Positions 10,252 through 19,255 of a stretch of DNA of 64,000 nt are shown piece after piece (positions within the stretch are counted from its first letter, which is position 1; each line of letters begins with the position of its first letter). The notes beneath the pieces were generated by a model. The model saw nothing but the letters and a program-made list of their open reading frames with translations. It ran no database searches and had not been told where the DNA came from. Position numbers and translations under genes: made by a program. Source of the stretch: Hydrocarboniphaga daqingensis (lineage in GTDB: Bacteria; Pseudomonadota; Gammaproteobacteria; Nevskiales; Nevskiaceae); contig NZ_FQWZ01000008.1 of assembly GCF_900129825.1 (NCBI RefSeq), positions 62,001-126,000 of the forward strand, given 5' to 3'.

Positions 10252-10287
10252 CAACCAAAATGCCGCCCTAAGGCGGCATTTTGGTTG
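10252..10287. terminator. Bidirectional terminator between opgD and the Pro/Ala-rich protein gene
   Basis: A perfect 16-bp inverted repeat, arm CAACCAAAATGCCGCC, with a 4-base CTAA loop. Each strand ends its stem in a TTTT run (…GGCATTTTGG), so it can serve the two convergent genes on either side. Confidence 0.85.
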
Positions 10288-10311: not shown

Positions 10312-11430
10312 TCAGCGGATGTACACCGGCCCGTGCAATTCGGTGCCGAGCGTCTGTCCGGCCTCGTTGGCCAGCTGTGGCGACACGATCACCGTATAGC
10401 GTCCTGGTTTGAGATTCTTGAACAGCAGCATGCGGCGGTTGCTGTTAAGCACCCACTGTCCCGGCGGCGTGCTGCCGTTGCTCGCCAGCAGACGGATCGT
10501 GGCATCTCCTCGCAGATCGACATCGGCTGCCATCGGCGAATCAAACAGCAAGCCGACGATGCGCTCGTTGGCCGCCTGACCTGCATAGATCAAATTCAGA
10601 CGCCCGGCGCGACGCTGTTGTGGCCACCACTGCGTCAGGGCATCGGCTTGCGGCGCGACACGAGCAGCGGGCCGCGGCGCAGCTGCTGCCGGCTCGACAT
10701 CGGCGGTTTGCGGCGCCGTCGGCGCCGGAGCGGCTTCCGGCTCGCTGACTTCGGCCGGTTCGGCGACATCGGCCGGTGTAGCGCCAGCGCCGATGACGGG
10801 ATCAGGACGGGGACGGGGCAGCGCGGCGGATGCGACGCTCACAGCCTCGGTGGCCGCGGGCGCCGTTGCCGGCACGGATTCTGTTTCGATTGCATCGGCC
10901 GGCGCGGGCTCGGCTGCCGGTTCCGGTGCCGGCCCTGTGTCCTGCGCGCTGGCGGTATCGGTTTCGTCGGTGGGAGCCGTGTCAGCGGCGGGTGCCTCGC
11001 TGCTCGATGAAGCCGGTGCCAGCACCGGGTCGGGCTGGGGGCGCGGCAGGTTGGTCGGCACGTAGGCCGTCATCGCTGCAGGGGCCGGCGCGGGCGGCTC
11101 GGCCGGTGCGGGCGTTTCGGCAATGACCGGCGCATCGGCCGCTTCGCCGTTGCCGGCGCTCTCGGGTTCGTCGGTCGGCATCGGGAAGTCCGATGCTCCT
11201 TCGATCTCGACGCTGGAATCACCGGTGTCGGGCGCGGCGACGGCGGGCTTGGGCGGTGAGACCGAGTCCGGCGGTGTGGCGATGTCGCTGGCCACCATGC
11301 CAGCGTCGGCCGCAACAGCCGGCGCTTCGAGCGAGGCCGGCTCGCCGGACTTCATCTGCTGGAGCCCCCAATAGGAACCCGCTGCGATCACGGCCGCGAT
11401 ACCGGCGATCGCGACAACCTTGTTGCTCAT
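10312..11430 (-). CDS. Membrane-anchored Pro/Ala-rich protein with C-terminal Ig-like domain
   Basis: A 372-residue protein of unknown function. Residues about 4-22 form one membrane helix (VVAIAGIAAVIAAGSYWGL), probably leaving the rest in the periplasm. Residues 30-260 are a low-complexity Ala/Pro/Glu/Asp linker containing the motif LPRPxPDPV twice, at 128-136 and 204-212. The C-terminal about 105 residues are ordered and beta-rich; NERIVGLLFDSP, then GRYTVIVSPQLANEAGQTLG resembles the bacterial SbsA/Big_5 Ig-like fold. The layout suggests an envelope-spanning arm, as in TonB or FtsN-like proteins, but there is no SPOR or TonB domain. It is monocistronic and convergent with opgD. Confidence 0.75.
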   Translation of the reverse strand: MSNKVVAIAGIAAVIAAGSYWGLQQMKSGEPASLEAPAVAADAGMVASDIATPPDSVSPPKPAVAAPDTGDSSVEIEGASDFPMPTDEPESAGNGEAADAPVIAETPAPAEPPAPAPAAMTAYVPTNLPRPQPDPVLAPASSSSEAPAADTAPTDETDTASAQDTGPAPEPAAEPAPADAIETESVPATAPAATEAVSVASAALPRPRPDPVIGAGATPADVAEPAEVSEPEAAPAPTAPQTADVEPAAAAPRPAARVAPQADALTQWWPQQRRAGRLNLIYAGQAANERIVGLLFDSPMAADVDLRGDATIRLLASNGSTPPGQWVLNSNRRMLLFKNLKPGRYTVIVSPQLANEAGQTLGTELHGPVYIR

Positions 11431-11688: not shown

Positions 11689-13092
11689 ATGAGCGATCGT
11701 CTGCTGGATTTCACCCAATCGCCGCTGGGCAAGCAGATTGCCGGCTTCCTCGGCATGCCGACGCCGCCGAAGCTGCGCCGTGCCAAGGCCGGCTACGCCG
11801 CTCAGCCGTTGCAAGGCAAGACCGTGCTGCTCGGCGGCGGATCGGCCGCGCAGTTGTCGTCGGCGCTGGTGCAGGCGCTGAACCAGATGGGCGCGACGAT
11901 CACCGTCAGCTCCGAGCTGCCGGGCCTGGCGCCGGTCAAAAAGGCCGCGACGGACGCCAAAGTCCCGCTGAAGACCGAAACGGTCGGCGAGGGCGCGTAT
12001 GCCTACGTGTTCGATGCCAGCGGCATTGAAGGCACCGACGGCCTGCGTCAGTTGTACGACTTCCTGCAGCCGCGCATTTCCAAGCTGGCCGCTAACGGCC
12101 GCGTGCTGCTGCTGAGCCGCGCTGCCGCCGACGCCGGCTCGGTTGCCGGTTACACCGCCTCCATGGCGTTGCGCGGCTTCACCAAGTCGCTCGGCAAGGA
12201 AATCGGCAAGAAGGGGGCGACGGTCAACCTGATCGAGGTCGGCGCCGGTGCTGAGCCGACGATTGAAGGCGCGCTGCGTTTCCTGCTGACCGAGCACTCG
12301 GCGTATGTCGACGCGCAGTTCCTGGCGCTGACCAAGCCCGCCAAGGGCGCCGTGGTCGACCAGTTCGTGTCGCCGCTGTCTGGCAAGGTTGCTGTTGTCA
12401 CCGGTGCGGCGCGCGGTATCGGCGCGTCGATTGCCGAGACGTTGGCACGTGAAGGCGCGACCGTGATCGGCGTTGACCGTCCGGCTGAAGAGGGCGCGCT
12501 GGGCCTGACGATGTCGCGTATCGGCGGTCGTGGCCTGGCTCTCGACGTGACGGCGCCCGACGCTGGCGAGCGCCTCGCCACCGAGGTGGGCAAGATCGAC
12601 ATCGTCGTGCACAACGCGGGCGTCACCCGCGACAAGATGCTGCGCAACATGCCGACCCATTGGTGGGATCAGGTGCTCGAGATCAACCTCGGCGCGATCA
12701 TGCGGATCAACGAGCGCCTGTTCAAAGGTGCGCTCAACGAAGGCGCGCGCATCATCTGCATCTCGTCGATCGGCGGCATCTCCGGCAACGCGGGCCAGAC
12801 CAATTACGGCGCCACCAAGGCCGGCATCATCGGCTACGTCGAAGCGCTGGCACCGCAGATGGCCAAGAACGGCGGCGCGATCAACGCCGTGGCGCCGGGC
12901 TTCATCGAGACCCAGATGACCGCCGCGATGCCGGCCGTTCCGCGCGAAGTGGGCCGTCGTCTGGCCTCGCTGAACCAGGGCGGCCAGCCGGTTGACATCG
13001 CGGAAGCCGTCACGTTCTTTGCCAGCCCCTTGGCGGCCGGCGTGAATGGGCGCACGCTACGCGTCTGTGGACAGAATTTCATGGGTGCTTGA
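11689..13092 (+). CDS. High-molecular-weight 3-oxoacyl-ACP reductase (FabG4-type SDR)
   Basis: A 467-residue two-domain short-chain dehydrogenase. The N-terminal half (about 40-215) is a degenerate Rossmann-like domain with no proper cofactor loop. The C-terminal half is a classical SDR with TGAARGIG at 238-245, NAG at 309-311, and the catalytic Ser about 360, Tyr373 and Lys377 (YGATK). High-molecular-weight FabG proteins reduce 3-oxoacyl-CoA or -ACP with NADH and often work beside MaoC-type hydratases; a MaoC-like gene occurs at 42383, far away. The ribosome site GGAG sits 6 bases before the ATG. The stop codon overlaps the ribA start (TGATG). Confidence 0.9.
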
Positions 13093-13718
13093 TGGAACCC
13101 GTCGCCTCAGCGCGAACGACGAAACGCTTACCGCTGGTCAAGATTGCCGAGTCCAAGTTGCCGACGCCGTTTGCGGAATTCCGCATCACGGTGTTCCGGG
13201 CAGCCGACGACAAAGAGCATGTCATTGTCTCGCTCGGTGATCTCGCCAACGGCGAACCGCCACTGGTACGCGTCCACTCGGAATGTCTGACCGGCGACGC
13301 GCTGTTCTCGCTGCGCTGCGACTGCGGCTTCCAGCTGCAGTCGGCCTTGGCCACGATTGCTGAGGCGGGCCGCGGCGCCGTGCTGTATCTGCGACAGGAA
13401 GGGCGCGGCATCGGTCTTGGCAACAAGATCCGCGCCTACGCGCTACAGGATCACGGCCGCGATACGGTGGAAGCCAATCATCAGCTTGGTTTTCCGGCTG
13501 ATGCACGCGAATACGGCTTGGCCGTCGATCTTCTGCACTTCCTCGGCGTGCAGAAGATCAAGCTGATGACCAATAACCCGCTGAAGGTCGATGCCCTGGT
13601 TACGCATGGCATCGAGGTCACCGAGCGCGTGCCGGTGCAGTCCGGGCTCAATCCGCACAACGAAAGCTATCTGCGGACCAAGGCCGACAAAATGGGGCAT
13701 TGGCTGACGCTGCCGTGA
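13092..13718 (+). CDS. ribA: GTP cyclohydrolase II
   Basis: First enzyme of riboflavin synthesis, opening GTP to 2,5-diamino-6-ribosylamino-pyrimidinone phosphate, formate and pyrophosphate. The 208-residue protein carries the zinc-binding motif with Cys65, Cys76 and Cys78 ([17 protein letters not shown]) and the catalytic [13 protein letters not shown] segment. It is a stand-alone RibA, not fused to RibB. The ATG at 13092 overlaps the fabG stop by one base; a TTG immediately before it is an unneeded alternative. No FMN riboswitch can sit here because the upstream DNA is coding. Its end overlaps the ABC1-family gene. Confidence 0.95.
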
Positions 13719-15886
13719 CCGACGAGTTGCCTCCGCCGGGCGGCTCGCCGCCCGCTCGTCGCGGCGGCCTGCTGCGCGAACTGGGCTCGTTGACCGTCTC
13801 GACGTACCGGCTCACGCAGAGTCTGAGTCCTCTGCTCAAGCAACTCGGCACTGATCGCGATACCACGCGCGAGGAGTTGTCGGCGTCGATCGACGTGATC
13901 TTCGATGCGCTGTATCGCCATCCGTTGCTGCGCTCGACGGAGAAAATCACGTCCTACCTGCGGCAGCGACGGCTGATTCCAAACGAGGAATCGACCGAGG
14001 AGCTGATCCGCTTCGTCGTGGCGCAGGGCGTCGCGCGCAGCCCGGTCCAGGTGCCGGACACGATCGTCAATGAGTTCTGGCGATTCTTCGACGAACTGTT
14101 CCAGAGCCCGGAGCTCAAGGGCTTGGGCGAGTTGTCGCTCGACATGATCCGGCTGGTGGTGCGGACCTACGAGCCGCTGCTGGTCGAGATCGTCAACGTC
14201 CTGAAGGCGGGGCGGCGCTACAACGAATTTCAGGTGCGCGAGCTGATGCTGCGTGCCGCTACGGTCCGCAGCGACGTGGCCATCGTCAAGCGCCAGATCC
14301 GTGCGCTGCGCTACATCAAGCCGTTCTTCAGCACCGACGCCAAAGACTTCAAGGCCCAGGCCCAGATCATCGCCAGTATGGTCCGGGAGTTTGGGCCGTT
14401 CTTCGTCAAGATGGCGCAAGTCGCTGCGGCCAACGCCGACTTTCTTCCCGAGGAAATTGCGCGCGAGCTGGCCGTGTTCCACGAAGATGTCCCGCCGATG
14501 AGCGAGGACGAGGTCGTCGCCGCCTTCATGGAGTGTTACGGCCGTCCGCCGTACGAGCTGTACATGGACTTCGACGCATCCCGGCCGATCAAATCCGGAT
14601 CGATCGGCAGCGTCTACGTGGCCAAGAAGCCGTTCCTCGATAACGGGCTCGAAGTCCTGCGGCCGGTGGTCATCAAGGTGGGGCGCCACAACATCGATCG
14701 AGAGTTCGCGATCGGCAAGATGGTGCTGGGCCTGGCGATCATGTCGAGCCAGTACTGGGCGCCGCACAGCAAACTCACGCCGTTTCTGCGCGCGATGCAG
14801 GAGCAGGTCGACGAGTTCGTCGCCGGCTTCATGGAAGAGCTGGACTTCGAGCAAGAAGCGCAGAATCACGCCCGCTTCTACGACCGCAGCTTGCGCAGCG
14901 GCTTGTGGAAGGTGCCGGAGCTTTACGGCCATACCCATCGCATCATCGAGATGGAGTATCTGTCCGATGCCACTGGCCTGACGCGCGCGCTGCGCCGCAT
15001 GAACCGCCGTGATCGTCGTCGCTTCCAGATGCGTCTGGCCGAGCGGCTGCTGTATGCGGTGCTGTATCACGGGCTGATCTACGGCGAAATTCACGGCGAT
15101 CTGCATCCGGGCAATGTCATGGTCGGATCGGACGGCGCGCTGCACCTGATCGACTGGGGCAATGTCGTCAAGCTCGACGGCAAGGTGGGCGCGGTCTGGG
15201 ACTATCTGGCCGCCGCCGTGCTCGCCGATACCGAACTGCTGACCGACACGCTGATCGAAATGTCGACGCACCCCGAAGCCAACCGTGAGCGCCGCGGCGA
15301 GATTCGCGCCGCGCTTGACGAGACGCTGTCGCGCAAGGGCGTCACCCCACTAACGCGCCGCAACTTTATCGTCGAGCTTCAGCGAGGCGGACTCGACGGC
15401 TTGTACCGCCGCGGCCAGACCGTGCTGCACTTGATGGCCAACACCCAGCAGGCGGGCCTGGTCTTGCGCCGCGACTATCTGCATTTGTCGCGCGCCCTGT
15501 TCGCGGCGGCCGGCAGCATCGGCAGCCTGTACGAAAACGATCCCAAGAAGCTGCTGGCCCGCGATATGGCGATGTCGTTGGCGCGGCTACCGCTGCGCGC
15601 CAGCCAGGACTGGCTGCGGCACGAGGCGCGCGGCATCGCGGCGACGCTGGCGGGCCGGATCCCGATGCCACGCCGGCTGCGCGCGCGGCTTGAACAACCT
15701 CCCGTTGTGCCTCGCCCGGAGCCGGTGACGCCGCGCGTGCTGTTCCCGCTGCCGACCCGGCCGGGTGACGCTGCGGGCCGCGCCATGCCGGGCGAACATG
15801 ACATCTCGCGGCGCGCTGCAGCGACGTCGCAGCCCCCATCCAAAAAGCCGCGCCGGCCGCGGCCTAGTCGAGGCGAAGCATCCTGA
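13715..15886 (+). CDS. ABC1/UbiB-family atypical kinase with altered signature motifs
   Basis: A 723-residue protein of the AarF/ABC1/UbiB family. The kinase-like core shows the family's N-terminal region, but KxGQ reads KMAQ (in [10 protein letters not shown]), the Ala-rich nucleotide loop reads [11 protein letters not shown], and the metal-binding DFG is DWG (LIDWGN). The catalytic HGDLHPGN is intact. UbiB-type members often carry C-terminal membrane helices, but this one ends in a basic, Pro/Arg-rich tail after about residue 630. UbiB proteins support ubiquinone synthesis; PyrD next door needs ubiquinone. The GTG at 13715 overlaps the ribA stop (GTGA); a TTG at 13700 is an alternative start. 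The role is uncertain. Confidence 0.82.
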
Positions 15887-16905
15887 TGAGCGGTTTGTAT
15901 ACGTTGGCGCGAACGGCGCTGTTTTCGATCGACGCCGAGCGCGCCCACGATCTGACGTTGGAATTGTTCCGTCGTGCGCCTCAACTGGCGACCGCGCCGT
16001 TCGCGCGAGCGGCCGTCGATGACCCGGTCGAATTACTCGGCCTCGAATTTCGCAATCGAGTCGGTCTTGCAGCCGGGCTCGATAAAAACGGTGCGTGCCT
16101 GCGCGCCTGGGACCGCCTGGGCTTCGGCTTCGTCGAAGTCGGTACGGTGACGCCGCGACCCCAGCCTGGCAATCCGAAACCCCGCATGTTCCGGCTTCCG
16201 GAACATCAGGCACTGATCAACCGGCTCGGCTTCAACAACCTCGGCGTCGACGCTTTGCTGCGCAACGTCGACGAAGCGGACTTTGGTGGTGTGCTCGGCA
16301 TCAACATCGGCAAGAACGCGACCACGCCGATCGAGAATGCGGTCGATGACTACCGTTTATGCCTGCAGAAGGTCTACGCCGCTGCCGACTACGTGACGGT
16401 CAACATCTCATCGCCCAACACCAAGAATCTGCGTGACTTGCAGGATGAGTCGCGGCTGCATGCCTTGCTGTCGGATCTGGTCGCCACGGCAGCCGGGTTG
16501 GCGCAGCGCCATGGCAAGCGCGTGCCGTTGCTGGTCAAGATCGCGCCCGATGTCAGCATCGAGCAACTCGACGGAGTCGTGACCGCCGCGCGCGAGGCGG
16601 GCGTCGATGGGCTGATTGCGACCAACACCACGATTGACCGTGCTGCGGTGCAGGGCAGCGAACATGCGTCCGAGGCGGGAGGCCTGTCCGGTGCGCCGTT
16701 GCGGACCGCATCGACGGAAACGCTCAGGAGGCTGCGTCATCGCGTTGGTTCCGACTTCGTACTGGTTGGTGTCGGTGGCGTGATGTCAGGTGCCGACGCG
16801 AGAGCCAAGCGCGAGGCGGGGGCCGATCTGGTGCAGCTCTACACCGGTTTCATTTATCGGGGTCCGTCCTTGATCGCGGAAGCGGCGCGCGCACTCAAGA
16901 GCTGA
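15886..16905 (+). CDS. pyrD: Dihydroorotate dehydrogenase (quinone), class 2
   Basis: FMN enzyme that oxidises dihydroorotate to orotate in pyrimidine synthesis and passes electrons to ubiquinone at the inner membrane. The N-terminal helices ([18 protein letters not shown]) form the quinone-binding extension that defines class 2. FMN site residues appear in AAGLDKNG, and the catalytic serine lies in [14 protein letters not shown] (about 175). The 339-residue length is normal for the class. The start ATG overlaps the last base of the upstream stop codon, so translation is likely coupled to the ABC1-family gene. Confidence 0.96.
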
Positions 16906-17045: not shown

Positions 17046-18314
17046 ATGAACAAGCTTGCAATCGGAATGCTGCTGTCCTGCGTGTCCGGGCTTTTATCGC
17101 CGTTGGCATGGGCTGATGAACCGGCAGCGTCAAAACCGTCGGTCAGTGCAATGGGGCTGTTTGAATTGCCGGACAACGCGCGCGATTCCGATGACGGCGT
17201 GGGCGGCAGCCTGAGTTTTTACTTGCCGCTGACCAGCCGCACCGGCGAAGGCCTCGAGTTTGATTTCTACGGCGTCAAGCGCGATGCAGACGCTGGCAGT
17301 AGCGATTCGCAGCTGGGCTTGTTCGTCAATTACACCAAGAGCTTTGGTGTCTATGGCTGGGATGGCGAAGCGGGCTTCGAGCAGTATTTGCCGCCGTTTT
17401 CGCCCTATGTTCTCGCGGGCGTGGGCGTGGTTCGCGACGTCGTTGCGACCGGTGACCACTACGCTCCGGGCTTGAACCTGGGGGCCGGCATTGCATTCCC
17501 GATTGGCGCTAGCGGCATGGCCCTGCGCACCGAAACCCGCGTCGTCGGGCAGGTCAACGACGAGTCCGTGCCGGGCGAGGACTACTTGGTCGACGTGCAG
17601 TTCCGCGTCGGCTTGTCGATTCCGCTCGGTGAGGCCGCGGCATCGTCGGGCGATCCGGCGCCGGCCGAGGAGTGCGGTGTCGCCGTGGTCGATCCGATCA
17701 CCGGTCGCAAAGACTGCTCGGTCGACTCGGATCGCGACGGCATTGACGACAATGCGGATCTGTGTCCCGGCACGCCGTCCGGCACACCGGTTGATCTCAA
17801 TGGCTGCACCGCAACGCCGAACCCGGACGCCGACGGCGATGGCGTACCCGATGAGGCCGACACCTGCCCCGACACCCAGTCCGGCGTCACCGTCGACATG
17901 AGCGGCTGCGTGCTCCCGCAAGGCGAAGGCGCAACGCCGCCGCCGGCCGACGCCAAGCGCGTCGTGCTGAGCAATGTGCGCTTCGAGATGAACTCTGCTG
18001 ACCTGACGGCGCAAGCCAAGGACGTCCTTGATCAAGCGGCTCAGGGCTTGTCCGCGGAAACGGAGATCGTGGTCGAGGTGGCCGGCCACACCGACGGCGC
18101 AGGCCGCGGCAACTACAACCTGATGCTGTCGTTGCTGCGCGCTGAAAACGTTCGCCAGTACCTGATCAGCAAGGGCATCAGTCGCTATCGCTTGTTTGTC
18201 GAGGGCTACGGCGAAACCCGCCCGGTTGGTCCGAACGATACGGCCGAAGGGCGCGCTGCCAATCGCCGCGTTGACCTGGACAAGCTCGACGTCAAGGTCA
18301 TCGAGAGCAAGTAA
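17046..18314 (+). CDS. OmpA-family outer membrane protein with thrombospondin type 3 repeats
   Basis: A 422-residue envelope protein. Residues 1-23 are a Sec signal peptide (cleavage likely after AWA). Residues about 30-200 form a predicted small beta barrel with alternating strands ending in VQFRVGLSIPL. Residues about 215-295 hold two calcium-binding thrombospondin type 3 repeats (DSDRDGIDD and DADGDGVPDEADTCPD). The C-terminal OmpA domain (about 305-415) binds peptidoglycan: GHTDGAGRGNYNLMLSLLRAENV-like core and GRAANRRVDL. This arrangement resembles OprF of pseudomonads. It probably links the outer membrane to the cell wall. A GC-rich hairpin follows the stop. Confidence 0.92.
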   Translation: MNKLAIGMLLSCVSGLLSPLAWADEPAASKPSVSAMGLFELPDNARDSDDGVGGSLSFYLPLTSRTGEGLEFDFYGVKRDADAGSSDSQLGLFVNYTKSFGVYGWDGEAGFEQYLPPFSPYVLAGVGVVRDVVATGDHYAPGLNLGAGIAFPIGASGMALRTETRVVGQVNDESVPGEDYLVDVQFRVGLSIPLGEAAASSGDPAPAEECGVAVVDPITGRKDCSVDSDRDGIDDNADLCPGTPSGTPVDLNGCTATPNPDADGDGVPDEADTCPDTQSGVTVDMSGCVLPQGEGATPPPADAKRVVLSNVRFEMNSADLTAQAKDVLDQAAQGLSAETEIVVEVAGHTDGAGRGNYNLMLSLLRAENVRQYLISKGISRYRLFVEGYGETRPVGPNDTAEGRAANRRVDLDKLDVKVIESK

Positions 18315-18367: not shown

Positions 18368-18955
18368 TTATCTCAGATGGCGGCCCGGCTGGCGCGACTG
18401 ACGCGCCGATACGTCCGACATGCTTTCGCGCCGCACCAACAAGTGCGCGCGAAAGCTGTCGTCGGTGGCGGTATAGGCCTGGTTTCCAAGCCGCACCGTC
18501 CCACCCTGACCGTTGTAGTCGGGTAGATAGAGGTAGTAAGCGTCTTCGATCTGGTCATCGCCCAGCCAGGCCGAGCGGTTCGCGTTTGACACGAAGTACA
18601 GATAACTACCGCGTTCGAAGCTGACCGCCATCCAGTTGGAGCCGCTGGCCAGTACCACACCGGGCGTGCCGCCATCGATGACGATCTGTTCGATGTCGCG
18701 GGCCGAACGGCTGACCAGACGACCATCGCGGACCCCCGTTTCGCCGCCACTGCGGCTGCGCACCAGCCGGATCGTGTCTGAAACGTAGTACTGCAGTTGC
18801 CGTTTGTGCTCGCCGCTCAAACGGTATTCGGCCGACAGCCCGTCGGTGAATGGCAGTCGCTCCGCATACCGTTGACCGGCGCAGCCTGCCAGCAAGCCCA
18901 TGCCAGGCAGCAGCAGCGGGATCAGCCAATGTCGGGTGTGGCGAAGGACGCGCAT
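18368..18955 (-). CDS. Putative lipoprotein of unknown function
   Basis: A 195-residue protein with a lipoprotein signal peptide: basic start MRVLRHTRH, hydrophobic core and lipobox LLAGC with Cys25 as the lipidation site. The mature part is mixed alpha/beta, with segments VVLASGSNWMAVSFERGSYLYF and YLYLPDYNGQGGTVRLGNQAYTA, and ends in a basic tail. I do not recognise the family. The start at 18955 was chosen because it gives the normal signal-peptide length; a farther upstream ATG would overlap the divergent DUF1289 gene. It is convergent with the OmpA gene. Confidence 0.72.
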   Translation of the reverse strand: MRVLRHTRHWLIPLLLPGMGLLAGCAGQRYAERLPFTDGLSAEYRLSGEHKRQLQYYVSDTIRLVRSRSGGETGVRDGRLVSRSARDIEQIVIDGGTPGVVLASGSNWMAVSFERGSYLYFVSNANRSAWLGDDQIEDAYYLYLPDYNGQGGTVRLGNQAYTATDDSFRAHLLVRRESMSDVSARQSRQPGRHLR

Positions 18956-19030
18956 GGGACGTGGTGTTGGATCAAACAAGGCGCGAGTGTAGCGGCAGGC
19001 CACGGTCGCGTTCCCGTGTTTAAATGCACT

Positions 19031-19255
19031 ATGCACTTCCCATCATTGGCTCCCGAACCGGCTCCGGCATCGCCCTGCATTGGCGTCTGCCTGTTGAACG
19101 AGGCCGAAATCTGTACTGGTTGCGGTCGCTCGATCGGCGAAATCGTGGAATGGTCGGCCGCTGCACCGCAGCGCCAGCAGCAGATCTGCGCCGCCGCTGC
19201 GCAGCGCCTGTCTATAATCGAGTCAATCCCCGCGCCCGGAGTGGTATCGCGATGA
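19031..19255 (+). CDS. DUF1289 small cysteine protein
   Basis: A 74-residue protein of the DUF1289 family (YdhL-like). The signature is SPCIGVCLLNEAEICTGCGRS, with four cysteines that could hold a metal or Fe-S centre, followed by the family's EIVEWSAAAP segment. Function is unknown in the family. The ATG giving MHFPSLAPEP was chosen because homology begins shortly after it. Its stop overlaps the start of the next gene (ATGA at 19252-19255), so the two are translationally coupled. Confidence 0.85.
   Translation: MHFPSLAPEPAPASPCIGVCLLNEAEICTGCGRSIGEIVEWSAAAPQRQQQICAAAAQRLSIIESIPAPGVVSR

Follow-up and report, generated by a model that had tools for sequence, protein, structure and literature searches.

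What does a protein built from a membrane helix, a long Ala/Pro-rich linker and a small folded tip do in the bacterial envelope, and which of its parts are the working ones? The question is raised by a gene in the window, i.e., the whole 64,000-nucleotide stretch of Hydrocarboniphaga daqingensis DNA that was analyzed (contig NZ_FQWZ01000008.1, positions 62,001 to 126,000 of the forward strand). The first-pass annotation had proposed that two nearly identical LPRP(Q/R)PDPV motifs in the linker bind a partner. The open reading frame of 372 residues on the minus strand is confirmed, as are both motif copies. The answer that we favor, with a probability of roughly 0.4, is an envelope adaptor anchored in the inner membrane, in which the tip and, in many members of the family, a juxtamembrane VF motif would dock partners, the best candidate being an OmpA-family protein encoded nearby. 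The gene comprises the following features.

10312..11430, minus strand: whole gene; the predicted product, of 372 residues and without cysteine, is anchored in the inner membrane and carries a linker and an MG-type tip (open reading frame with ATG start; relatives across the order)
11350..11424, minus strand: predicted transmembrane helix, residues 3–27 (AlphaFold2 helix; the 19-mer of top hydrophobicity lies directly after MSNK)
11269..11301, minus strand: juxtamembrane site, residues 44–54 (GMVASDIATPP), where the family motif x-D-x-V-F-(A/G/S) is present in degenerate form (alignment)
10645..11349, minus strand: Ala/Pro-rich linker, residues 28–262, predicted to be disordered (composition; low pLDDT without predicted structure)
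11023..11049, minus strand: LPRPQPDPV, residues 128–136, copy 1 of the repeat (sequence)
10795..10821, minus strand: LPRPRPDPV, residues 204–212, copy 2, which aligns with the single copy of L113 (sequence, alignment)
10621..10629, minus strand: WWP, residues 268–270, directly before the beta sandwich (alignment; WW in 60 of 61 copies)
10315..10644, minus strand: C-terminal domain, residues 263–372, a MG0/bMG1-like beta sandwich (profile, Pfam and structure matches)

The full-length AlphaFold2 model, which was built with 14 family sequences, contains a helix at residues 3–27 and strands from residue 280 to residue 371. Residues 31–270 show block means of pLDDT of 34–55 and lack predicted structure except for a three-residue helix at 266–268, and the linker (235 residues) is 47% Ala and Pro (64 Ala and 47 Pro). 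Structure prediction of the C-terminal region yielded a beta-sandwich tip; the layout originally read from the sequence, consisting of a membrane helix, a disordered Pro/Ala linker and an Ig-like folded tip, is thus supported by AlphaFold2 and by the fold matches of the tip. The N-terminal helix is predicted to anchor the protein in the inner membrane. We infer that the remainder lies on the periplasmic side, where the disordered arm of variable length would allow the beta-sandwich tip to move.

Across the fetched stretches, ribA and/or pyrD accompany 43 of 61 family copies, which are termed main-locus copies here, the other 18 being off-locus copies. The estimated length of the linker ranges from 67 to 292 residues among the main-locus relatives and is not conserved. 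The proposed reach of the protein across the periplasm is possible with such arms, yet it is not demanded by them, and a fixed ruler between two membranes is disfavored because of this variation. In many Nevskia relatives (L115–L125), the Ala/Pro-rich arm carries modules of the LSEEEARKIAExV type (EARKIA-type), often repeated, which are probably helical. As for O-glycosylation of the linker by a PglL-type ligase, a Wzy_C_2 match was obtained only below threshold (20.1 bits versus a cut-off of 28.5).

Against chance, the LPRPxPDPV repeat stands out only slightly. When the residues of the linker were shuffled 2000 times, 46 of the shuffles contained a gapless pair of 9-mers with 8 matches, and 241 of 2000 first-order Markov sequences contained one with 8 or more; the repeat, of a quality that randomized linkers reach in 2–12% of cases, is mildly unusual at best. 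A back-translated DNA pattern of LPRPxPDP finds these two sites only in the whole genome, with none for the reversed control. Since the two copies use different synonymous codons at 6 of their 8 shared residues, an origin of the pair in a recent duplication of DNA is rejected; the same divergence leaves room for a lineage-specific motif.

Conservation was assessed in 57 family proteins, obtained from 61 unique rows by removing four macroglobulin fragments, one longer frame having been dropped beforehand; this set holds the copies fetched by then, a part of the copies of the order, and includes one fragment with an incomplete linker (L019). LPRPxPD or PRPxPD is present in two of the 57, namely twice in the window protein and once in the protein of Hydrocarboniphaga RYN_594, whose imperfect copy (LPRPTPDRV) aligns with copy 2 of the window protein. 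It is absent from Hydrocarboniphaga effusa and from the other relatives in the set. A conserved partner-binding motif is rejected on this distribution, and the outcome is largely the one that the first-pass annotation had named as pointing to chance duplication within a low-complexity linker. The repeat is real; because it is not kept in relatives, it is probably not a working part of the arm, and it may be described as a lineage-specific arm feature rather than a core element. That the pair nevertheless serves as a bivalent partner-binding motif, acquired in this lineage only, would agree with residues kept despite six synonymous codon differences, with the one related copy in RYN_594 and with the uniqueness of the two sites in the genome; set against its occurrence in two of 57 proteins, its absence from H. 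effusa and the ease with which shuffled linkers yield repeats of equal quality, this seems quite improbable. An eye-catching repeat within a low-complexity linker is not necessarily the part that is conserved. Separately, a linker patch, VEIEGASDFPMPTDE (window 11167–11211, minus strand, residues 74–88), is common to the RYN_594 protein, where it reads VEIEGASNFPMPPDD, and it is better kept between these two proteins than LPRPxPDPV.

Two other short elements are kept more widely. WW occurs in all 30 aligned C-terminal domains, in all 57 proteins of the motif set and in every copy of the neighborhood set except L130. It lies ahead of the segment that can be aligned to macroglobulins: matches to PDB sequences begin at profile position 10 or 25, and structural alignments begin at residue 15 of the model, in which WW occupies residues 9–10. 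The tip, together with this WW lead-in, may dock on a periplasmic or outer-membrane partner.

The second element lies close to the membrane. In 25 of 42 main-locus proteins, versus 0.27 expected when each linker is shuffled, the 55 residues that follow the helix contain the pattern (V/I/L)F(A/G/S)(A/S/G/N), a contrast that is descriptive because the pattern was picked after viewing some of the sequences and because the sequences are related and non-independent; one further main-locus row was excluded by the hydrophobicity threshold. The motif is missing in the remaining 17 main-locus proteins and in all 18 off-locus proteins. The window protein lacks the F of the motif and does not fit the pattern; its site aligns with VFAGDVAS and VFASDIAS of two congeners. 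In the many members that possess it, juxtamembrane VF(A/G/S) might engage a partner close to the inner membrane. This motif and the WW that precedes the tip would offer two short targets to test.

A motif placed between a membrane helix and a Pro-rich arm recalls TonB and TolA, in which case a juxtamembrane peptide would be gripped by an ExbD/TolR-type protein and the tip would act on the outer membrane. The order of parts is indeed the same, from the helix through the short juxtamembrane motif of many members and the Pro-rich arm to a small C-terminal domain. PMC10907165 describes a conserved juxtamembrane D-box just before the Pro-rich arm of TonB, and it is this D-box that makes the analogy worth a test. 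Moreover, a TonB_2-domain gene (L039:5808-6458) lies two genes away from off-locus copy L039, beyond and adjoining its OmpA neighbor. However, SHLS, given as the motif of the TonB/TolA transmembrane helix (PMC10907165), is missing from the window helix, the only His of the protein being residue 366; the tip is assigned to the MG-type beta sandwich fold (Z 13.7) rather than to a TonB/TolA-type C-terminal domain; no ExbBD/TolQR genes occur among the annotated neighbors in the window, where some of the neighbors are annotated; and the family is confined to one order among the genomes searched. A transducer of this kind is therefore considered very improbable.

On the predicted model, the small tip is akin in fold to the MG domain with which bacterial macroglobulins begin. 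Built from 14 sequences (pLDDT 85.5), the domain model finds its best structural match in residues 63–162 of the E. coli macroglobulin (5a42/4zjg) with a Z of 13.7, and the N-terminal MG domains of the E. coli and Salmonella proteins together give Z values of 13.2–13.7 and rmsd values of 2.2–2.3 Å over 97 residues at 19–22% identity. The next matches are SbsC (Z 9.9), SbsB (8.9), TssM (8.6), CopC (7.5) and LdtMt2 (7.2). Foldseek likewise ranks a macroglobulin N-terminal MG domain first (E 2.7e-5). In a comparison of the family profile with PDB sequences, the N-terminal fragment of the E. coli macroglobulin matches at 1.4e-5, and WD-40 and designed repeat proteins appear in the list from 1.4e-4. 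At E up to 0.1, the Pfam model bMG1 (PF17970) matches 27 of the 30 members, the best at 1.1e-7, and Big_5 matches 20 of the 30; in the underlying alignment, the L008 row lacks a few residues at either end. The window domain itself scores 19.9 bits with bMG1, under the curated cut-off of 26.4, and has no NCBIfam match at E up to 0.1.

The weaker fold matches suggest two other roles. CopC proteins carry copper-binding histidines, and the tip resembles the Ig-like sandwich of CopC/PcoC with a Z of about 7; unlike in these proteins, none of the columns that are invariant, or nearly so, in the 30 domains is His, and CopC-like copper binding is rejected on this ground. The tip might instead bind peptidoglycan directly, making the protein a cell-wall-binding tether that needs no protein partner. 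The architecture would suit such a task, as the arm could reach the wall, and Ig-like domains of LdtMt2 are among the weaker matches (Z 6.2–7.2). These matches are no better than those of CopC (Z 6.4–7.5) and lie below those of S-layer domains, and the families listed for the 30 domains include no peptidoglycan-binding one, so that direct wall binding is judged possible, though unlikely, next to a tip that docks a protein partner.

The resemblance to bacterial alpha-2-macroglobulin (E. coli YfhM/ECAM and Salmonella SaA2M; the domain is called MG0 in the title of 4zjg and bMG1 in Pfam, PF17970) includes the fold of the tip, at 19% identity over the 97 residues of the best match, and the inner-membrane anchoring on the periplasmic side, which is predicted here. 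Alpha-2-macroglobulin carries a lipid-anchoring cysteine after its signal peptide, whereas the window protein has a transmembrane helix and no cysteine. The latter also differs in its long disordered arm, in the WW just before the aligning part and in having a single MG domain in place of an array with bait region and thioester domain: the bait-region and thioester models are unmatched, and bMG1, below its cut-off, is the sole macroglobulin model that is matched. In PMC4498604, two N-terminal MG domains are described as anchoring bacterial macroglobulins to the inner membrane.

The family is spread over a single order. By protein search, 42 of 61 genomes (counting that of the window) contain a match, and a profile of 30 C-terminal domains extended the family to 63 of 85 genomes of the order; one group, f6, has no copy in any of its 17 genomes by the profile search. 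Among 274 genomes sampled from the class, eight match the profile, two of which are from the order; the remaining six are located in open frames of 1500–1733 codons and are read as macroglobulins because of the frame length and the domain. A scan of named genomes with a single protein returned zero matches, and one with five domains returned 13 loci, of which two belong to Hydrocarboniphaga, eight to Nevskia and three to less precisely named MAGs. The closest relatives are those of Hydrocarboniphaga RYN_594 (61% over the domain) and H. effusa AP103 (57%). In the domain tree, 17 of the 18 off-locus copies form one clade with moderate support (81/96), and L139, on a long branch, falls outside it. 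This seems to be an envelope gene that one order has retained by vertical descent, its detached MG domain being unusual. A narrow search, limited to open-licence papers, found no description of the family.

Given the N-terminal MG fold in common, the protein could belong to the alpha-2-macroglobulin (A2M) system, for example as a docking subunit. Over the 85 genomes the two co-occur (both in 40, family only in 23, A2M only in 2, neither in 20; Fisher p 1e-5), an order-wide association that arises because one group, f6 (17 genomes), has neither. Outside f6 (68 genomes), the link is not significant (40, 23, 2 and 3; p 0.36). An A2M match is missing in 23 of the 63 family-bearing genomes, on which ground an obligate A2M accessory is rejected, and the A2M gene of the window's genome is on another contig. 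Membership of this system is accordingly regarded as highly doubtful, and we return to an adaptor with a different partner, for which the gene neighborhood provides a candidate.

10253..10286, strand not assigned: perfect inverted repeat with 15 bp arms and a 4-base loop, terminator-like (read from the sequence; not listed by the terminator scan)
11689..13092, plus strand: long-form FabG-type SDR, 467 residues, the divergent neighbor (Pfam; conserved neighbor)
13089..13718, plus strand: ribA, GTP cyclohydrolase II (Pfam; conserved neighbor)
13700..15886, plus strand: ABC1 atypical-kinase-domain protein (Pfam; conserved neighbor)
15886..16905, plus strand: pyrD, dihydroorotate dehydrogenase (Pfam; conserved neighbor)
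17046..18314, plus strand: OmpA-family protein with a TSP3 repeat match, a possible partner (Pfam)

The tether gene diverges from the stretch of FabG, ribA, ABC1 kinase, pyrD and OmpA and lies tail to tail with an MdoG-family gene, the inverted repeat sitting between the two convergent ends. The neighborhood counts rest on homology-based rows, gene picking being crude and partly returning shadow frames on the wrong strand. An OmpA-domain gene lies within the fetched stretch of 35 of the 43 main-locus copies and was not found in that of the other eight, at least two of which are on short contigs. Four of the 18 off-locus copies (L039, L065, L131 and L139) directly adjoin an OmpA-domain gene, with frames 76, 158 and 120 bp apart in three cases and overlapping in one, and these are possible tether-OmpA pairs. 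For the other 14, an OmpA-domain gene is absent from the fetched stretch; several off-locus copies are near contig ends, where missing neighbors can be an artefact.

The OmpA tree, for which the L139 domain row was left out, 17 of 20 fetched control regions were used and MAIN_L071 is an unreliable long branch, places three of the four off-locus-adjacent OmpA proteins in one supported subclade (100/95), apart from the main-locus OmpA; seven control OmpA genes taken away from family copies also fall into this subclade. A search for pyrD in ten genomes that lack a family match succeeded in nine. An OmpA gene adjoins pyrD in two of these (G015, and G344, whose contig stops at pyrD); in the other seven, including the six f6 genomes checked, the pyrD stretch yielded none. 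OmpA-domain matches number 13 to 28 per genome in eight genomes, some genes having several. The association of the family with an OmpA-family gene is suggestive; such genes are numerous, and the copies are related by descent.

The best candidate for the partner of the adaptor would be this OmpA-family protein, a choice guided by gene neighborhood only. A more far-reaching version can be formulated, in which the order of Nevskia and Hydrocarboniphaga would possess an undescribed envelope bridge: a detached macroglobulin-type MG domain, anchored in the inner membrane through a disordered arm, would dock on an OmpA outer-membrane partner, and additional tether-OmpA pairs would have arisen in certain genera by gene duplication. 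We consider the whole of this picture distinctly unlikely. If true, it would show the N-terminal MG domain of macroglobulins in use by itself as a mobile periplasmic tip, and it would give a testable role, envelope tethering, to a conserved, syntenic family of unknown function.

Several smaller observations accompany the locus and its relatives. A minus-strand frame of 222 residues at 18368–19036 of the window is matched in 5 of 40 neighbor loci and has no Pfam match at E up to 1e-5. In G015, one of the genomes without a family match, a short frame (L155:5096-5524) at the syntenic place encodes a helix and a juxtamembrane part with no tip, and OmpA is kept. The start of L139 resembles a cleaved signal peptide more than an anchor. 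Finally, by eye, many off-locus copies carry a stretch of the LESG..K.K type before the helix, a feature not seen in main-locus copies.
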